Assembly (NCBI RefSeq): GCF_001306145.1
Contig: NZ_LGKO01000002.1
Coordinates: forward strand, 434,001 to 498,000
Reading direction: 5' to 3'
Length of the DNA stretch: 64,000 nt
Origin: Thermanaerothrix daxensis
GTDB lineage: Bacteria > Chloroflexota > Anaerolineae > Anaerolineales > Anaerolineaceae
In this document: positions 2,384-14,810 of the stretch, in pieces
Numbering within the stretch: position 1 is the stretch's first letter
Layout: the number at the start of each line of letters is the position of its first letter
Made by a program: the position numbers and the translations under genes
The notes under the pieces: model-generated
Seen by the model: the letters and a program-made list of their open reading frames with translations, nothing else
Databases searched by the model: none
What the model was told of the DNA's origin: nothing

Positions 2384-2421
2384 TGGCCGGGTGGGAGGTG
2401 ATCCTCACCCGGCCAATTTTT
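2384..2421 (+). terminator. Rho-independent terminator after the rhodanese gene
   Basis: A 10-bp perfect stem (tggccgggtg with cacccggcca) encloses a 12-nt loop and is followed by aattttt. It lies 24 bp past the rhodanese stop and reaches the stop codon of the convergent TPR gene. A short A-rich stretch on the left (cataaaat) could let it work in both directions. Confidence 0.8.
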
Positions 2422-4771
2422 AAGAGGATGTGGGGGGAGGCAGTTCTCGTAACAGCTTTTGTAGGGCTAACTCGTATTCGGCTTTGTTGGGAGGATTGAG
2501 GGCAATGATTTCACGAACCATTCGAATGGCCTGAGGGGTTTCACCAAGTTCGATGTAGGTATCTGCAAGTGCATCAAGTTCTGCCACAGCGTGCTCAATT
2601 TGTTGAAGCTGGCGATACAGGTGAGCCAGGCGATAGCGTAGCAGTAACTTTTTCTGGGGATGTTCAAGAATCAGGTCGTGCAGGAATTGAACTGCTTCGT
2701 CAATACGATTAGCGCTGATCAGAAAGTGGATGTAGTTGTCTATTTCATTAAGGGCGGCTGTTTCCTGACCCAGGCGGAAGTGAAGTTCGATAATGCGTCC
2801 GCGCAGGTCACGGTCGTCCGGTTGTAATGTGCGCATTTGCTCGTACGTGCTCACGGCTTGTCGCCAGTCCAGGCGCTGCTGATCAATGTCTGCTACTTTG
2901 CCTAAAATGAGCAGCGCCCAGCGTCGGTACTCGCGAGAAGACTGGGCAATGTGGAGCGCTTCTAAATACGTTTGGCGAGCCTTGTCCAATTCGGCTAGGT
3001 GGTAGTGCGTATCGGCCAGGGCGATGCTTTCCTGGACGGCCTCGTCGGTGCGTCCCTGGTTTAGTAACAGTTCAATTAATTGATGGCGAATAGGGAGTTC
3101 CATCGGCGCCATTTGAGCACTACGCTGTAACAGGTTTACAGCTTGGCTCGTTTCGCCTCGCAAGTGATACAGTTGAGCCACCAGGCGGTACTTATTAACC
3201 GCTTCCTGGGTCATGCCCTTCTGCATCATCAGGTCGCCAATTTGGATGTGCAAAGGCAGGTAAGTAGGTGCGAAACTCAGGGCGCGAAAGGCTTCTTCCA
3301 TGGCCGAGTAGAGCATGTGGCGGGCAGCCAGTTGCCGAACCTGCTCAAGGGCTTCAATCACCCGCGCACTGCGGGTCTCAAGCAGCATTTCGGCCAGCAA
3401 GGGTGGGGGGGTGTTCTCGCTCACTTGCTGCTGCAATTGCTGGCGCGCCTTTCTCAGAAGGTCTCGCCAGTTGGGTTGGGCAATTTGGTGTTCGATGCTC
3501 TCACAGAGGGCCTGCAACTTTTGAGGATCTTTTTCATTACGCTGAGCCTCGATAATTGACTCATAGGCCTGATTAATTCCCTCTACCTGAGGCGGAGGAA
3601 CAGTCTGGGCGTCGGCCAGGCGCAAGGCCTGGAGGTAAGCCGTGGCTGCTTCGCCGTAGTTGCCTAATCGGGCAGCGATGCGCCCAATCAAAAGGAAGGC
3701 AGCCAGGGCAAAATCGGGGTGAGCCGCCGCCCGGTAGAGGTACTGTAAGGCGCGGGCCGGATCTCGCTCGGCGAGTAACAATCCCAGATTGTAGGAGAGC
3801 GCGGGGTGAACGAGTCCCAGTTTTTCTGCGCGTTCCAGTTCCTGCAGCGCCTGAGTGTCATCGCCGTGGGTTTGGGATTCAATGGCCTGGTTGAGATGAA
3901 GTAGCAACCGGGTTAAATCGGCCTGGTTTGTGGGCAGGAGCGTTCCTGTGCCGCGGGCCAGGGCGCTCAATCCCCGGCGTGAGGAGGAAGGTGCTGAGGG
4001 ATTGGCGACGTGCTCGGCCTGATCAAAGAGCAAAGTGGCCAGTTGCACCAGCGCCTGCTGGCGCGCCTCAGCGATGGGATCAAGGGGCTGACGATCTTGG
4101 TCTTCGGTGTCGGTTTGGAGAATTTCGGCCAGGCGCACTGGACCAGTGCCGCCACGTGGTCGGGTGGGTTTAGGTAGGGGGGTGCCGTTGCGCAGAGCCT
4201 GTAAAGCCTGGGTGGCTTCGGCGCTTCCGGGCAAGAGTTCCAATGCATGCTGGACCGTCTGGATGGCTTTGGAAACCTGGTTGTTTTGTTGCAAAAGGCT
4301 GGCTACGGCCAGATAGGCTTCTACGGCTTCGGCTTTACGTCCCAAACGTTCGTAGATAAGGGCCAGCCGGCTGTGGGCCGTCAGGTTTTCGGGTTGCAGA
4401 CTCAGGACCCGCATGAGACTGGCAATTGTTTTCTCAACATCACGGTTCTTGAGGTACAGATCAGCCGCCTGTAGTCCAAGCCGGACGGCATCTTTTAGCC
4501 GCCCCAGCCGTTCGTAAATGCGTGCCATCTTCTCATATGCCAGGGGATCCTCCGGCTGTAAAGCAGCCAGGCGCTGATAGATTGAAAGGGCTTCGTTAAA
4601 CTGCTGTAACTCAAATAGGGCCAAACCAAGGTTACTTAGTGCCTGCGGATCATCCGGAAACTCTTCTAGAGCGCGCCGATAATGTTGCGCAGCCAGTTCC
4701 CAGTTCTGATCCCAGGCCGCCGAATGTCCCTCGTTCATGGCTTGTTGATAGAGCTCGCGATTCCCGGCCAC
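2420..4771 (-). CDS. Large TPR-repeat protein
   Basis: 783 aa, cytoplasmic (no signal peptide or membrane segment seen). Tetratricopeptide-like helical pairs run nearly end to end: about residues 5-200, then a Pro/Gly/Ser-rich break around 195-275, then further repeats from 290 to the C-terminus. Phrases such as ALSNLGLALFEL and AYEKMARIYERLG are typical of TPR. Such proteins are scaffolds for protein-protein contacts, and no catalytic domain is visible. It is the last gene of a minus-strand run after the receiver-like protein and polA, 42 bp downstream of polA, and is probably cotranscribed with them. The partner and process are unknown. Confidence 0.8.
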   Translation of the reverse strand: MAGNRELYQQAMNEGHSAAWDQNWELAAQHYRRALEEFPDDPQALSNLGLALFELQQFNEALSIYQRLAALQPEDPLAYEKMARIYERLGRLKDAVRLGLQAADLYLKNRDVEKTIASLMRVLSLQPENLTAHSRLALIYERLGRKAEAVEAYLAVASLLQQNNQVSKAIQTVQHALELLPGSAEATQALQALRNGTPLPKPTRPRGGTGPVRLAEILQTDTEDQDRQPLDPIAEARQQALVQLATLLFDQAEHVANPSAPSSSRRGLSALARGTGTLLPTNQADLTRLLLHLNQAIESQTHGDDTQALQELERAEKLGLVHPALSYNLGLLLAERDPARALQYLYRAAAHPDFALAAFLLIGRIAARLGNYGEAATAYLQALRLADAQTVPPPQVEGINQAYESIIEAQRNEKDPQKLQALCESIEHQIAQPNWRDLLRKARQQLQQQVSENTPPPLLAEMLLETRSARVIEALEQVRQLAARHMLYSAMEEAFRALSFAPTYLPLHIQIGDLMMQKGMTQEAVNKYRLVAQLYHLRGETSQAVNLLQRSAQMAPMELPIRHQLIELLLNQGRTDEAVQESIALADTHYHLAELDKARQTYLEALHIAQSSREYRRWALLILGKVADIDQQRLDWRQAVSTYEQMRTLQPDDRDLRGRIIELHFRLGQETAALNEIDNYIHFLISANRIDEAVQFLHDLILEHPQKKLLLRYRLAHLYRQLQQIEHAVAELDALADTYIELGETPQAIRMVREIIALNPPNKAEYELALQKLLRELPPPTSS

Positions 4772-4813: not shown

Positions 4814-7597
4814 TTAGGAGGAGGTTTCATCAAAGGGGGTCATTTCACCCCAATTCAAGCCCCAACGGGCCTCAGTCAGGAGGGGCACGACCAGTTGGTA
4901 AGCATTCTCCATCACATTCTTTACCACTTGGGCGGTGGCGACTTTCTCTGCTTCCGGGCATTCCAGGACCAGTTCGTCATGCACCTGAAGCAGCAGGCGG
5001 GCCGAAAGACCTGCTGATTCCAGCGCTGTTGGCAGACGCACCATGGCAATTTTCATAATATCCGCCGCTGTGCCCTGGATGGGGGCATTTATGGCTTCGC
5101 GCTCTTCGCGTTGGCGAACGGCAGGGTTGGGGGGATTCTTGAGGTTGGGGAAGTAACGTCGGCGCCCTAACAGGGTTTCCACGTATCCCTGGCGAGCAGC
5201 CAGGGCGCGGGTATTCTCAATGTAATCCTTGACACGAGGAAACTGACGGAAATAAGCCTGCACAAAATTCTCTGCCTCAGCCAGGGTTAAATCGGTGGTG
5301 CGAGTAAGCCCAAATGGGCTCATGCCGTAGATCAGGCCGAAGTTGATGGCTTTGGCGTGTCGGCGTTGTTCTTTGGTGACCTGCTCGAGAGGTACGCCGT
5401 AAATGGCCGCGGCCGTAGCGGCGTGAATGTCCTGGCCTGCCAGGAAAGCGTTGATCATGGCTTCATCGCCAGAGATGTGAGCCACGATGCGCAGTTCAAT
5501 CTGAGAATAATCCACCGAAATGAGCACCATTTCGGGTGCGGCAATAAAGGCGCGCCGCACCAGGCGGCCTGTTTCAGTGCGGGTGGGAATGTTCTGCAAG
5601 TTGGGGTCCGAGGAAGCCAGACGCCCGGTAACTGAGCCGGTTTGATTGAACGATGTGTGTACCCGCCCTGTCTTGGGATTGACCTGCTCGGGCAGTGCGT
5701 CTACATAGGTGGATTTGAGTTTGGAGAGCTCCCGGTATTCCAGAATCATCTCAATAATGGGGTGTGCAGAGCGCATTTCTTCCAGCACTTCGGCTGAAGT
5801 GGAGTAGTGCCCGCTACTGGTGCGCTTGCGCCGATCCGGGGGTTCTAAACGCAGGGTTTCGAAGAGGGCTTTTGAAAGTTGCTGAGTTGAGTTGAGGTTA
5901 AAGGGATACCCCACTATCTCAAAGATCTTAGATTCAATCTCGGCCAGCCGCTGGCTCAATTCACGTGACATTTGGCGTAAGAAGGGTACATCTAATGCGA
6001 TACCGGCTTGCTCCATGCGTGCCAAAACCGGCACCAGTGGCATCTCCACCTCATTAAATAAGCGCAGGGCGTTGACTTCTCTCAGACGTTCTTCGAGTAG
6101 GGGCTTTAAGCGCAAACAAATCTCCGCATCGGCGGCTGCATACGCAGCAACAGTTTCAATCGGCACCTCAGCCATGGAGCGCTGTTTTTTACCTTTGCCG
6201 ATGAGTTCTTCGATGTGGGTCATCTGGACGCCCAGGTAGGCCTCGGCCAATCCTTTGAGGTTGAGGTTGTAGCCTTCAGGATTAAGCAGCCAGGCAGCGA
6301 TCATGGTATCAAAACTTAAGGGAGAAACCCAGATTCCCTGCTCGGCCAGGACCAGCAGGTCGTACTTGAGGTTATGGCCTACCTTGCGCCGTTGAGGGTG
6401 GTTCAGGTAGGGTTGCAGACGTTCACGCACCAGTGCCCAGGGCAATTGGGTTTCCCCGGTGGTGTGTCCAAGTGGGATGTAGTACCCCTCACCTGGTTCA
6501 ACAGCCAGGGAAATACCCACCAGGTCGGCTCGAAGAGGATCCAGGCTGGTTGTTTCGGTATCGAGCGCAAACTCGTCTGCGCGCTCCAGCCGTTCGCAGA
6601 GTTCATCGAGCGCCTGGGAGGTGTTCACAATATGATAGCGGGTTTCAGGTGCTTCGGGACTACCCACTTGAGTGAACGGCAACCCAAAGAGGGGAAGTTG
6701 TGTGGTCGCCGGGGGCGTTTTCTGTTGCAGGGCTTTGAGGCGTGGGATCAAACTGCGGAATTCGAGTTCCTGGAAAAAACGTTCTGCCGCATCAAAATTC
6801 AGGTTACGGGTGCGTGCCCGTTCCAGGTCAAGGGTGATTGGAACGTCGGTGCGAATGCGTGCCAGATCACGGCTAAGGTAAGCCGACTCGCGCCCCTTCT
6901 CCAGCAATGTGCGCAGGCGTGGGGGCAATTCATCCAAATGCGCATAGATTTCATCCAGGGTGGGGTATTGGCTTAGCAATGTAACAGCAGTTTTCTCGCC
7001 GATACCTGGCACACCTGGAATGTTGTCAGAAGTATCACCCACCAGAGCCTTGTAATCCACAATTTGCCACGGGCGAATCCCCAGCAGGGCGACCACATCT
7101 TGAGGGCCATAGTCTTTGGCCTCAGAGAGTTTGTTACCAGCCAGGTTTACGATCACACGCTCGTTTACCAGTTGAAGCAAATCGCGATCCCCAGTGATGA
7201 TCTTAACCCCCAGCCCATTCTCAAGGGCTTGGTGAGTAATGCTGCCCAGAACGTCATCGGCCTCGTAGCCCTCTTTTTCCAAAATTGGCAAGCCAAAGGC
7301 CTCCACCATTTCGTGCAGACGATCAATTTGGGGGCGCAGTTCATCCGGCATTTTGGCCCGTGTGGCTTTGTAATCTGCAAACAAATCGTTACGAAAAGTT
7401 CGCCCGGTATCAAATGCCACTGCCAGGAATTCGGGCTGTTCTTGATCCAGCAGGCGCAACAACACACTGGTAAAACCGTAAATGCCCGTGGTAATCTCGC
7501 CCTTCGTGGTCATCAGGTGCTGACCACCCTTAAGGATGGCAAAGTAGGTACGGTAAGCCAGGGCATGACCATCAATCAGATATAACGTTGGAGGCAT
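4814..7597 (-). CDS. polA: DNA polymerase I
   Basis: 927 aa, the usual length for a three-domain Pol I. The N-terminal 5' nuclease (about 1-290) starts with LYLIDGHALAYR and has the helix-hairpin-helix IPGVPGIGEKTA. The 3'-5' exonuclease domain keeps the metal-binding acidic residues (DTETTSLDP, GHNLKYDLL, YAAADAEICL), so proofreading is probably active, unlike Taq-type enzymes. The polymerase domain has motif A (DYSQIELR), the O-helix region (RRHAKAINFGLIYG) and motif C (VHDELVLE). It fills gaps in DNA repair and replaces Okazaki primers. It starts 12 bp after the receiver-like gene, so the two are likely cotranscribed. Confidence 0.98.
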   Translation of the reverse strand: MPPTLYLIDGHALAYRTYFAILKGGQHLMTTKGEITTGIYGFTSVLLRLLDQEQPEFLAVAFDTGRTFRNDLFADYKATRAKMPDELRPQIDRLHEMVEAFGLPILEKEGYEADDVLGSITHQALENGLGVKIITGDRDLLQLVNERVIVNLAGNKLSEAKDYGPQDVVALLGIRPWQIVDYKALVGDTSDNIPGVPGIGEKTAVTLLSQYPTLDEIYAHLDELPPRLRTLLEKGRESAYLSRDLARIRTDVPITLDLERARTRNLNFDAAERFFQELEFRSLIPRLKALQQKTPPATTQLPLFGLPFTQVGSPEAPETRYHIVNTSQALDELCERLERADEFALDTETTSLDPLRADLVGISLAVEPGEGYYIPLGHTTGETQLPWALVRERLQPYLNHPQRRKVGHNLKYDLLVLAEQGIWVSPLSFDTMIAAWLLNPEGYNLNLKGLAEAYLGVQMTHIEELIGKGKKQRSMAEVPIETVAAYAAADAEICLRLKPLLEERLREVNALRLFNEVEMPLVPVLARMEQAGIALDVPFLRQMSRELSQRLAEIESKIFEIVGYPFNLNSTQQLSKALFETLRLEPPDRRKRTSSGHYSTSAEVLEEMRSAHPIIEMILEYRELSKLKSTYVDALPEQVNPKTGRVHTSFNQTGSVTGRLASSDPNLQNIPTRTETGRLVRRAFIAAPEMVLISVDYSQIELRIVAHISGDEAMINAFLAGQDIHAATAAAIYGVPLEQVTKEQRRHAKAINFGLIYGMSPFGLTRTTDLTLAEAENFVQAYFRQFPRVKDYIENTRALAARQGYVETLLGRRRYFPNLKNPPNPAVRQREEREAINAPIQGTAADIMKIAMVRLPTALESAGLSARLLLQVHDELVLECPEAEKVATAQVVKNVMENAYQLVVPLLTEARWGLNWGEMTPFDETSS

Positions 7598-7609: not shown

Positions 7610-9349
7610 TCAGGAAGCGGCACGATTTTGAGCGATCAGGGCTTCGATTTCTGCATTGCTTGGAGGAGTCTCATCGGCGATCGCCAGATGCATGGGGGCC
7701 CAAAAAGAATCTGGGGCCAGGTCGGCCAGGGCCTCAGGTACTCGATGAAAGAGCCTCCAGGCGCTGTGATGTCGTACAATGTGCACCATGTGGCGAGGGG
7801 TAACAGAGGAAGGAATGGCAATTGTCCATAGGAGATAGTTCGAGGTGACGACCAGGCGCTTAAGCGTCCATCCCAGGCGCTGGCACCAGTGCGGCATCCA
7901 ACGTGTCAGTTCCATGGTCACCTTGGGGTTTTGCAGGGCTTCCGGGAGCGTGGTGACCAGGACGGCTGTGTAGGTGAGATAAAGGGGTTTCTCCGCGGCA
8001 GGCTGGTTGAGGGCGTCCAGGGTCAACGGTTGGGTGTCTTCTACAGAAAGAGTAGGTGAAGAACTTTCAAGGTCTACAGGGTGTTCAGAAGGAAACCCTC
8101 CGGTGGCCACTGCTAAGGCCTCAAAGAAATCCGGGGGTGGCTCAAACGCACCCTCATGTGCTTCTTCGGGAGGCTGAACATCTACCTCGCCGGGTTCAAA
8201 CGTCCAGACTTCCGACCGGATTTCTCCCCTCTCAGATGGACCTGCCTCGGCCATCAAAGTTTCCTCTAACGCAGGGGGTTCAGAAGAAGACACTTCGGGA
8301 GTAAACGCTACTTCGGGCAACCAGTCCGCCTGAAAATCCGGCATTTCCGCACGAACGGACTGTTCCGGATCAGGAGGTGGGGCTTCGGCCAGCCATTGTT
8401 CCAGTAGACTCAGATCCGGAAGGGAAATGCTTTCGTCTTCCCCCTCATCCTCGGGGGTTTTCCATCCATCTGCTTCCATCATCCAGACCAGGGACTCCGC
8501 TTCCGGGGTCGGGGGTTCGGTTTCGCCAGTGCTTTCTTCAGGGGGGCTGGCCGGGGAGGTGGCGGATGCTTCGGCGAGCAAGAGTTCGGAAGTCAGCCAG
8601 GGGGAGGCTTCGAGAGATTCTGCTAATGCTCGACCTTGTTGCCGTGCCCGGCTCAGGAGTGTGGAAGCAGCGAAGAAGACCAACAATAGCGTATGGGAAG
8701 CGAGGGGGTGGGCGTAGAGCAGAATTGGCTTGCTTTGTCCCAAAGGTGTCACATATCGCAGCCATTCACCGTCTCTCAAAAGGCGCTGCTCGCGCTGTTG
8801 CACCCAGGCTTCCAGGTACTCATGAAGCGAGGTTTCGAGGTCTCCGGTTTGGACAAGCACGCGTCCGGCGCTGTAAATCCAGGTCGCTTGTGCGTCGCTT
8901 TGACTCAGGAAGGTAGTCAAGTGCTGGTGAAGTGCTTCCAAGGGCTGAGGCATTTGGGGCGGGGGCGGGAGGATCTTTTCGCCTCGACAAAGGGTCTCCA
9001 CGGCGAGTAACAAATCGGGCAGGTAAAAAGGTTTGGACAGATAGGCCCAGGCAAGGATCGCAGAGGCTTCAGGATGATAAGGGTCGTTCTCCGGTGGAAA
9101 GAGTAGGAGGGGAACATGAGGAAACTGATGTGAAAAAGCCTCCAGGTGTTCCCGCAGCAGGGTATCACCGGTAGGAAAATCTGCGATCAGCAGGTCAACC
9201 GGTTCTTGGGCAAGGCGGTCAAAGATATCCGCCGGAGAGGCACATAGGATGACCCGGTAGCGTCCGGTTTCCTCCAGGCTGAGACGCAGCCATTCGGCAA
9301 ATTGGGCTTGAGGGCTGAAAACCAGGAGATTCTTCACGTCGTTGACCAT
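7610..9349 (-). CDS. Receiver-like protein with a C-terminal degenerate IS200/Y1 transposase-like domain
   Basis: 579 aa from the ATG at 9349; the frame also permits an ATG at 9391, but the receiver fold begins directly at NLLVFS. Residues 5-120 resemble a CheY receiver with the phospho-acceptor Asp (LLIADFPTGD) and Lys (LSKPF), but the N-terminal acidic pair is lost. Residues about 135-245 loosely resemble Roadblock/LC7. An acidic Pro/Glu-rich linker follows (about 250-440). The last ~125 residues align by eye with the TnpA Y1 fold of IS200: the region GWTLKRLVV, then IPSSVTP, HHSAWRLF and the FWAPMH segment. The HUH motif (usually pDHvHll) reads TSNYLLW and the catalytic Tyr is absent. It may be a domesticated DNA- or RNA-binding output domain. 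Function unknown; it lies upstream of polA. Confidence 0.65.
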   Translation of the reverse strand: MVNDVKNLLVFSPQAQFAEWLRLSLEETGRYRVILCASPADIFDRLAQEPVDLLIADFPTGDTLLREHLEAFSHQFPHVPLLLFPPENDPYHPEASAILAWAYLSKPFYLPDLLLAVETLCRGEKILPPPPQMPQPLEALHQHLTTFLSQSDAQATWIYSAGRVLVQTGDLETSLHEYLEAWVQQREQRLLRDGEWLRYVTPLGQSKPILLYAHPLASHTLLLVFFAASTLLSRARQQGRALAESLEASPWLTSELLLAEASATSPASPPEESTGETEPPTPEAESLVWMMEADGWKTPEDEGEDESISLPDLSLLEQWLAEAPPPDPEQSVRAEMPDFQADWLPEVAFTPEVSSSEPPALEETLMAEAGPSERGEIRSEVWTFEPGEVDVQPPEEAHEGAFEPPPDFFEALAVATGGFPSEHPVDLESSSPTLSVEDTQPLTLDALNQPAAEKPLYLTYTAVLVTTLPEALQNPKVTMELTRWMPHWCQRLGWTLKRLVVTSNYLLWTIAIPSSVTPRHMVHIVRHHSAWRLFHRVPEALADLAPDSFWAPMHLAIADETPPSNAEIEALIAQNRAAS

Positions 9350-9354
9350 GTTTT

Positions 9355-9386
9355 TAAGTCTATCACGGCTAATAAGGCTGAGCAAG
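9355..9386 (-). promoter_or_regulatory. Possible leaderless promoter of the receiver-like gene
   Basis: On the minus strand TTGCTC, 17 bp, then TAGACT lies 7 nt before the ATG at 9349. The -10 is weak, so this is tentative. If real, the transcript would begin at or near the start codon, and no SD is present. Confidence 0.35.
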
Positions 9387-13557: not shown

Positions 13558-14454
13558 CTAAGGCTGGGCGAATTCCAATCGCCATCCGCCGATAAAAGTT
13601 TGACCGTCCGGCGCCTTGCATTGAGGGGGTTGGAGACCTCGCACGGTTTCACCCACATCGCCAGGTCGAACATCGTAGGTGAGATTGGGATCCAGCAGGG
13701 CATCCGCATAACCGGGACTGATGGCGGGGTAAAGCCCAGTGTAGAAGACGTTTTGCCCACCGCTCCAAAACAATGTAATTGGAACTCCGGCCAGGGGCTG
13801 CCCGGCGTTATCGGTCAGGTAAATCTGGAGCAGGCCTGCGGGTACTCCATTTTCGCATAATGGACGTTGGTCAACCAGTTTAAAGGGTGCTTGTAGCGCC
13901 GGGCGCTGAGTAGGTGAAGGCCGGGGGGTAAACGTAGGCCAGGGAGTTAGCGTGGGGGTGGGGGAGGGTGTGGAGGTGGGTGTGGCAATGGCCTGGCCGA
14001 GACCGAGGGTTGGTAAGGAGACTGTAGAAACCAGAGATCCGGAAGCCGGCGTAGGGGGTGCCGGTGATGAAGACGGTGGGGTGGGCTGGGCGAGAGCGGC
14101 TACCAATTCGGCCAATGCCCGCGCCGCCTCGAGGTTATTCCCTTCGGCCAGCCATTGCTGAGCCTGACTGGCCAGGGCTTGTGGCGCGAGGTCACCATCA
14201 AGCAGGTGCAAGCGCAGGCGGGCGCGTTCGAGATTGCCGTTGGACTGGTAGGCCTGGGCGATTAACAGGCGGTAGGTCGCCTTGTAAGATTCGCTCAGCA
14301 TGGCGGGAGCGGTATCCATATAGCGTAGAGGGCTGAGCACCCGTGCAATGAACAACCCAAGCAGGAGCCCCAGTACCAGGCCGGTGAGCAGGTACAAAGG
14401 CGGTTGCGAAGAGGATGCTTCGTCAGGATAGTTGTCCAGGTCGTCGGGAGTCAT
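13558..14454 (-). CDS. Membrane-anchored protein with Pro/Thr-rich stalk and C-terminal beta domain
   Basis: 298 aa. A single membrane segment lies at about 20-42 (LLTGLVLGLLLGLFIARVL). A helical region follows (about 50-120: YRLLIAQAYQSNGNLERARLRL), then a low-complexity stalk of Pro, Thr and Ser (about 125-195). The C-terminal ~100 residues look like a beta-sandwich carrier domain (LLQIYLTDNAGQPLAGVPITLFW). The helical region is paralogous to that of the neighbouring 119-aa protein, with which it overlaps by ATGA. The layout suggests a surface-exposed domain on a stalk. Function unknown; no enzymatic motif was seen. Confidence 0.7.
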   Translation of the reverse strand: MTPDDLDNYPDEASSSQPPLYLLTGLVLGLLLGLFIARVLSPLRYMDTAPAMLSESYKATYRLLIAQAYQSNGNLERARLRLHLLDGDLAPQALASQAQQWLAEGNNLEAARALAELVAALAQPTPPSSSPAPPTPASGSLVSTVSLPTLGLGQAIATPTSTPSPTPTLTPWPTFTPRPSPTQRPALQAPFKLVDQRPLCENGVPAGLLQIYLTDNAGQPLAGVPITLFWSGGQNVFYTGLYPAISPGYADALLDPNLTYDVRPGDVGETVRGLQPPQCKAPDGQTFIGGWRLEFAQP

Positions 14455-14810
14455 GGCGCTACTGTGGGTTGAATTTGAGGCTGGGTCTGGAGGGCCTGGA
14501 AAAGACGCGCCAGGGTTTCAACATCCTCGCGTGCGTATCCCAGTTGCTGGGCGGTTAAGATGGCTTCCTGCACTTTACGCAAAGGCGATTCTCCGAGCAA
14601 GGCCAGGCGCTGGGCGGCGGCGTTCACATCCCCTTCATGTTGATAAATCTCGGCCACCATCAGGACATAATCGGCCTGGTAGTCGGCCCGCAGGGTGTCG
14701 GGCGTTGTGTTTTGGGGTTGGGCAGCCATGATGCCCCATCCCAGGTAGAGTCCCAGCCCCAGTCCTACTGCCAGGGTGAAGAGGAACCCCAAAATGCGCC
14801 AGAGCCGCAC
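14451..14810 (-). CDS. Small membrane-anchored protein, paralogue of its downstream neighbour
   Basis: 119 aa with a GTG start. One N-terminal membrane segment (about 5-30, FLFTLAVGLGLGLYLGWGI) is followed by a helical domain (DYQADYVLMVAEIYQHEGDVNAAAQRL) that matches the equivalent part of the 298-aa protein. The start lies 2 bp after the hutU stop and the end overlaps the 298-aa gene by 4 bp, so the three are almost certainly read as one message. Function unknown. The helical part could be a degenerate TPR-like hairpin. Confidence 0.7.
   Translation of the reverse strand: MRLWRILGFLFTLAVGLGLGLYLGWGIMAAQPQNTTPDTLRADYQADYVLMVAEIYQHEGDVNAAAQRLALLGESPLRKVQEAILTAQQLGYAREDVETLARLFQALQTQPQIQPTVAP

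Follow-up and report, generated by a model that had tools for sequence, protein, structure and literature searches.

A TnpA-like Y1 domain without its HUH pair, fused to receiver and Roadblock-like domains and encoded beside polA in Anaerolineales: a possible regulator of DNA polymerase I

The window analysed here, a stretch of 64,000 nucleotides from the genome of Thermanaerothrix daxensis, carries directly upstream of polA a gene for a protein in which a receiver-like domain (REC), a Roadblock/MglB-like domain and an acidic linker precede a C-terminal domain (CTD) of TnpA transposase fold that has lost its HUH histidine pair, referred to below as dead Y1. This architecture and the exaptation of the transposase domain, taken together, are close to certain. 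Domesticated transposases are a known broad kind, of which the present case, an exapted transposase domain within a three-domain protein, is a new variant. The preferred reading of its role, held at a probability of about 0.4, is that the protein would be an exapted, non-catalytic regulator controlling either polA expression or the placing of DNA polymerase I (Pol I), a task that would be linked to the replication or repair of DNA.

Domain organization of the protein

The reading frame runs on the minus strand from an ATG at 9349 to a stop codon at 7610-7612 and encodes 579 aa (Table 1). Every motif that an earlier reading of the DNA letters (the sequence-only reading) had picked out, namely GWTLKRLVV, IPSSVTP, SAWRLF, FWAPMH, TSNYLLW, DFPTGD and LSKP, is found in it. 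All three domains are present in 31 of the 38 proteins (41 loci) whose CTDs were extracted.

Table 1. Coordinates in the window of the dead-Y1 gene, its parts and its neighbours
Feature	Position	Strand	Basis
Gene for the 579-aa protein (REC, Roadblock-like, linker, dead Y1)	7610..9349	minus	ORF and family alignments
Receiver-like domain, about residues 1-125	8975..9349	minus	Pfam, PDB receivers, model, Foldseek, residue counts
Roadblock/MglB-like domain, about residues 135-261	8567..8947	minus	Profile against PDB, model
Acidic Pro/Glu/Ser/Ala-rich linker, residues 262-445	8015..8566	minus	Sequence
Dead Y1/TnpA-like domain (CTD), residues 446-579	7613..8014	minus	Pfam, PDB profile, model, Foldseek
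HUH motif position, Tyr505-Leu-Leu507 (family consensus Y-L-Q)	7829..7837	minus	Alignment
Catalytic Tyr position, Leu571	7637..7639	minus	Alignment
Promoter-like motif TTGCTC-17-TAGACT, ending 7 nt before the ATG	9357..9385	minus	Kept in relatives
polA, DNA polymerase I (5' nuclease, 3'-5' exonuclease and polymerase domains)	4814..7597	minus	Domain scan
TPR-repeat protein gene, often next after polA in relatives	2420..4771	minus	Domain scan, neighbourhoods

The receiver part scores 14.9 bits with Pfam Response_reg, under the cut-off of 30.2, and matches PDB receivers at E 0.0043, with the model and Foldseek also backing the fold. The receiver Asp and Lys that the sequence-only reading had located in DFPTGD and LSKP are both there, as Asp57 and Lys106, and they are widely kept in the family (Asp in 108/113, Lys in 87/113). 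What had been overlooked is that the acid pair after strand 1, which binds Mg2+, is missing: the window protein has SP at this place and an acid occupies the first column in 9/113 members, so that the receiver may not work as a phosphorylation switch. The central region, likewise overlooked, is Roadblock/MglB-like. Profile A2 of this region matches MglB (3t1s) in the PDB at E 5.6e-7, and in Foldseek the REC-Roadblock model matches MglB 1j3w with a TM of 0.63 of the target and Rag/Roadblock chains with a TM of 0.35 over both domains; among the Pfam matches listed for the 35 single members scanned there is no Roadblock family. The linker has a median length of 148 aa in the family (range 13-566, n=121) and a median net charge of -8.

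The C-terminal domain and its relation to TnpA

The Pfam profile PF01797 (Y1_Tnp, cut-off 23) matches the CTD of the window protein alone with 23.7 bits (E 5.4e-5) and the whole protein with 19.9 bits, under the cut-off, and it is matched at E<=1 by all 38 CTDs examined (the window and 37 relatives), the best at 1.2e-16. When a profile of the CTD family was compared with the PDB, eight TnpA-type chain sequences were found at E values from 1e-18 to 4e-9, with no match of any other type up to E 10. In NCBIfam the CTD reaches 21.0 bits with the IS200 transposase model (cut-off 55) and 15.5 bits with slr1957 (cut-off 77). The AlphaFold2 model of the window CTD, built from 43 sequences (the window and 42 translations from named contigs), has a pLDDT of 89.2, and all 29 matches that Foldseek returns for it at E<=0.001 are TnpA-type transposase entries. 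With VIA-align, counting one row per entry, 15 TnpA entries stand on top with Z 13.0-15.2 and rmsd 1.7-4.1 over 104-123 residues, and the next fold follows at Z 8.1. The claim about the fold is safe because the PF01797, PDB profile, Foldseek and VIA-align matches all point to TnpA; the Y1/TnpA ancestry suggested by the sequence-only reading is thereby borne out, and the structure prediction it had proposed as a check puts no unrelated fold on top.

The loss of the HUH pair was also correctly recognized. The window protein reads Y-L-L at residues 505-507, and the survey of homologues that had been proposed shows the same fusion to be common and the HUH pair to be intact in none of 126 distinct CTDs, one of the two histidines being kept in 10. 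The two positions are mostly Y (111) and Q (100), which makes a new conserved Y-L-Q motif, and further conserved motifs of the CTD, such as FWAPGYL, are new as well. The statement that the catalytic Tyr is gone is right for the window protein and does not extend to the family, where this position is Y in 86, F in 36, L in 3 and a gap in 1 of the 126 distinct CTDs; in the 46 rows left by a 70% identity filter, F stands there in 34, Y in 9, L in 2 and a gap in 1. On these alignments, loss of the HUH pair is the defining change in the dead-Y1 family, and loss of the Tyr is common, not universal. Among 24 control rows, taken from Y1 proteins of the order and the class and including three pairs that are the same gene fetched twice, HUH is kept in 19 and one histidine is missing in five, which represent four genes, one of them fetched twice; partial decay of HUH is therefore not peculiar to the dead-Y1 family. 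A stand-alone Y1 protein of about 141 aa (L241/L275, G046:C435) has Y-V-H and a Phe at the Tyr position and is partly decayed.

Distribution, origin and selection

The dead-Y1 family is spread through the order of the window's organism and is thinner in the rest of the class. A match to the window protein was found in 44 of 61 genomes searched, its own included. A scan with one genome per species gave 199 loci that encode a relative, of which 80 were kept; these carry the labels Anaerolineales, Anaerolineae, Anaerolineaceae, Anaerolinea, Brevefilum, Villigracilaceae and Chloroflexi/Chloroflexota, and one is a MAG labelled Herpetosiphon. The CTD profile matches 180 of 301 genomes of the order; in 17 of these the best match is no stronger than E 1.8e-21 and may be to ordinary transposases. 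A search of the class with the full alignment A1 gave 44/199, a figure in which ordinary TnpAs are mixed with the family and which is no family count. Outside the order and within the same class, a diverged REC-Roadblock-Y1 protein is encoded in 11 of 12 loci (L100-L111), which had been selected from the A1 search mostly for long frames. The Roadblock profile matches 22 of 251 genomes of the phylum, and the one match outside the class has REC and Roadblock without Y1.

In an unrooted tree, 46 thinned family members are split from 15 control Y1 proteins (what remained of the 24 control rows once short ones and duplicates had been removed) by one branch with support of 99/98. This single branch between the family and the HUH TnpAs fits one capture, and the Y1 domain was probably captured from a transposase once. 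Compared with a relative of the same genus, dN/dS is 0.064 for REC, 0.12 for Roadblock, 0.096 for the linker and 0.055 for the CTD, values that are rough because dS, at 0.9 to 2.4, is near or past saturation. The CTD is the most conserved part in this comparison (92.5% identity; linker 64.8%) and is under purifying selection. This selection, together with the branch that sets the domain apart from the HUH TnpAs, upholds the exaptation that had been suggested from the window. Stand-alone CTD paralogues without receiver or Roadblock domains occur in genomes of family f12, in frames of 166-231 aa and in some cases in several copies; a stand-alone paralogue in G047 (L058:6615-7199) is without HUH and has no polA downstream.

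The polA neighbourhood

In the window, polA starts 12 nt after the dead-Y1 gene and is followed by the TPR gene on the same strand, and the UDP-glucose dehydrogenase gene at this locus runs in the opposite direction. The placing of the gene with polA, already noted from the window, holds well beyond it: of 134 CTD loci, a set that includes the window's own locus and the stand-alone paralogue L058, 112 have polA on the same strand no more than 600 nt downstream; without four loci that were fetched twice, the figure is 109/130. Among the other CTD loci, polA is found at 600-5000 nt in 6, less than 1 kb of sequence is left in 3, and no polA is found in 13 although at least 1 kb follows. For fusions outside the order, polA is within 600 nt downstream in 5 of 11. 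This conserved place before polA speaks against mobility, but stand-alone CTD copies also exist elsewhere.

polA was found in 16 of 17 relatives that have no match to the window protein. In the polA surroundings of 14 such relatives, the family gene is absent in 13, although for one of these no more than about 230 nt upstream could be read. The fourteenth, G015, carries a diverged copy. polA directly adjoins the UDP-glucose dehydrogenase gene in three of the 13, the dead-Y1 gene being neatly missing. Some relatives, for instance the one-contig genome G018 (L253), have retained polA and not the dead-Y1 gene, which is therefore dispensable. Partial versions of the protein also precede polA, consisting of REC and Roadblock (L055, L069, L259), of REC only (L256) or of Roadblock only (L257). 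Since these versions are without Y1, the polA link need not run through the Y1 domain, and it may be older than that domain or have outlasted it. Conserved adjacency to polA need not equal a functional link.

Elsewhere in the window, a short protein encoded at 14451-14810 (minus strand) matches the end of DNA_pol_A_exo1 with 20.5 bits (cut-off 23.6), which is probably due to chance, and the 577-aa protein encoded at 627-2360 has, to judge from its sequence, what we take to be four tandem rhodanese-like repeats.

Sequences flanking the dead-Y1 gene

A promoter-like motif, TTG-n-TGATAnACT, stands upstream of the start in 64 of 69 relatives, where shuffled sequences give a mean of 0.02, and also in the window, a count that is descriptive only because the pattern was read off the sequences before counting. 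In all but two of the 64 relatives, hence in 62, the distance from the end of the motif to the start codon is 6-11 nt. A strict consensus promoter scan did not list the window motif at 9357-9385. The spacing of the motif suggests that the dead-Y1 gene probably has a leaderless transcript; genes of this kind are described for bacteria in an earlier report (PMC3160421). Hairpins upstream of the dead-Y1 gene give no signal, being present in 11/71 loci when shuffled sequences have them in 6 on average and in up to 12.

In one clade, made up of family f12 and named relatives, a hairpin lies 3' of the dead-Y1 stop, in the interval before polA, with GCAGAG, TATAAT, a few nucleotides and CTCTGC, additional outer pairs and a T-rich tail. 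Its layout is GCGCAGAG-TATAAT-loop-CTCTGCGC, and an example is L120:6440-6468, from the loci L117-L196, after the stop of the family gene. In the interval that starts 20 nt before the stop and reaches to 200 nt after it, 66 of 126 loci have a TATAAT, and in 53 of these 66 a perfect stem of 6 bp or more surrounds it (after mononucleotide shuffling, mean 0.28 and maximum 2; two of the loci counted were fetched twice). In a pattern-free list of 35 distinct stems the 5' core is GCAGAG in 32 and GCGGAG in 3, and DNA folding of six clade hairpins gives z from -3.2 to -10.5. Pairs 6 to 8 are formed in all 46 distinct hairpins collected with the core pattern, and two-sided changes are seen at pairs 4, 7 and 8; because the pattern that chose the loci fixes most of the inner five pairs, the case for conservation rests on pairs 6-8 and on the pattern-free list. 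Among 301 genomes of the order, 27 have the exact hairpin core; these all belong to family f12 and have it once each, and a control pattern gave 0. All 27 matches are downstream of the dead-Y1 gene on the same strand, at a distance from the CTD match of up to 147 nt in 26 of them and of 1,071 nt in G662. None of the listed genomes of the window's family, its own genome among them, has the core, and the clade hairpin therefore cannot be the target in the window's genome.

Proposed function and alternative explanations

In the preferred reading, a Y1 domain would have been captured from a transposase, probably once, and would then have lost catalysis. The dead Y1 would have been kept as a putative non-cutting, structure-specific module for binding nucleic acid (hairpin or ssDNA), the Roadblock and receiver-like parts would form a platform for dimerisation and protein interaction, and the protein would regulate polA through either its expression or the positioning of Pol I on DNA. 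Control of polA expression would be the favoured form, followed by delivery of Pol I and then by a GTPase-type scaffold; it is preferred because a promoter-like motif precedes the gene, which points the same way as polA, and because in one clade a conserved single-copy hairpin with a -10-like box in its loop separates the two genes. As a mechanism, such control of polA is put forward tentatively, with the odds somewhat against it. The dead Y1 would most simply be a recognition module, since the fold is kept, selection acts beside polA and the clade hairpin carries a -10-like box; secondary structures at the ends of elements are recognised by TnpA proteins, according to an earlier study (PMC6006769). 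We infer that the CTD binds nucleic acid; that its charge is only weakly positive (+1 for the window CTD and a median of +2 for the family, with a lowest value of -12, compared with +5 in HUH-intact TnpA controls) speaks against DNA binding. The most specific form of the proposal, in which the dead Y1 would be a DNA-reading arm that controls Pol I and the loop of the clade hairpin, as the -10 box of polA, its putative target, is rather doubtful; that most of the dead-Y1 family has no such hairpin weighs against it. The chances are about even that this hairpin is a mere intrinsic terminator of the dead-Y1 gene that overlaps the promoter of polA and is unrelated to the protein. The 12 nt after the core are 73% T, and L147 has an unrelated hairpin with a separate TATAAT behind it, both of which suit a terminator, whereas the near-uniform 5' core, between flanks that look unrelated by eye, amounts to more conservation than termination needs.

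The protein could instead be an adaptor that binds Pol I directly or via the TPR protein and delivers it to hairpins or ssDNA on the lagging strand, with no control of transcription. The linkage, which involves polA itself and in many loci the TPR gene as well, would fit such a role, as would a linker of such variable length, which is what a flexible tether would allow, but relatives that have polA and not the dead-Y1 gene count against it, and the adaptor is considered unlikely, if still a serious contender. Marginally less favour is given to a signalling or polarity scaffold, in which Roadblock, an MglA-like GTPase and the receiver would work together as in RomR/MglB, with Y1 as a protein contact only and polA as a bystander. 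The match of the Roadblock domain to MglB and the weak charge of the CTD agree with a scaffold, and the organism's own genome has a small GTPase-like frame of 195 aa (G000:C4:156781-157278, outside the window like all G000 matches); yet the GTPase profile is unspecific, matching 10/10 genomes with or without the dead-Y1 gene and 12/14 control genomes including E. coli, and the scaffold leaves the polA linkage unexplained. That the CTD is the remnant of a decaying IS200 joined by chance to a response regulator is hardly credible: its catalytic residues are gone and profile libraries call it a transposase, but the same architecture and place recur in more than 100 loci, the dN/dS of the CTD is low and the domain has acquired conserved motifs of its own, and the remnant is rejected on selection and synteny. 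A role in repressing resident IS200 elements is not favoured, as the two other PF01797 matches in the genome cover profile positions 60-120 only; they may be Y1 proteins of another layout. A search for defence systems gave no PADLOC match at E<=0.1.

Relation to known systems and significance

Most of what is known about Y1 HUH proteins concerns active enzymes. The dead-Y1 CTD shares fold and sequence homology over about 125 residues with IS200/IS605 TnpA (PF01797; 2ec2, 2fyx, 2f4f, ISDra2 2xm3, ISHp608 2a6o). It differs from TnpA in the absence of the HUH pair, in having Leu (window protein) or Phe (most thinned rows) where TnpA has its Tyr, and in its fusion behind receiver and Roadblock domains at a fixed place before polA in most loci. 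RAYTs, which are chromosomal, non-mobile Y1 proteins, retain both HUH and Tyr, and their targets are dispersed REP repeats. Compared with the CTD model, the RAYT/TnpA-REP structure 4er8 reaches a Z of 8.0 only; unlike in RAYTs, the HUH pair is gone, and the sole hairpin sought, that of the clade, is a single copy where it occurs. The TldR proteins, RNA-guided transcription factors derived from TnpB, offer a parallel idea, namely a nuclease-free transposon protein turned regulator. TldR descends from TnpB, not TnpA, and in contrast to it no guide RNA is implied for the dead-Y1 protein. The polarity proteins MglB and RomR of Myxococcus combine Roadblock and receiver modules in one system, there as separate proteins. 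To our knowledge, no Y1 domain is known in MglB/RomR systems. An earlier study mentions that a few unexpectedly long Y1 proteins, regarded as gene fusions or annotation errors, were discarded (PMC6006769), and no description of the receiver-Roadblock-dead Y1 fusion was found in the part of the PMC literature covered.

The re-use of transposases by host genomes is frequent; here an old, uniformly HUH-less Y1 is tied to polA through an order and beyond, and the Y1 fold would thus serve as a pure recognition module. Automatic annotation may label dead-Y1 genes as transposases and so hide them. If the proposal is true, the recognition of hairpins that once served transposon ends would now set the supply or the placing of Pol I, and the protein would be a TnpA counterpart of the TnpB-derived TldR regulators. 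In a major bacterial group that is for the most part uncultured, it would indicate a so far undescribed level of control over Pol I.
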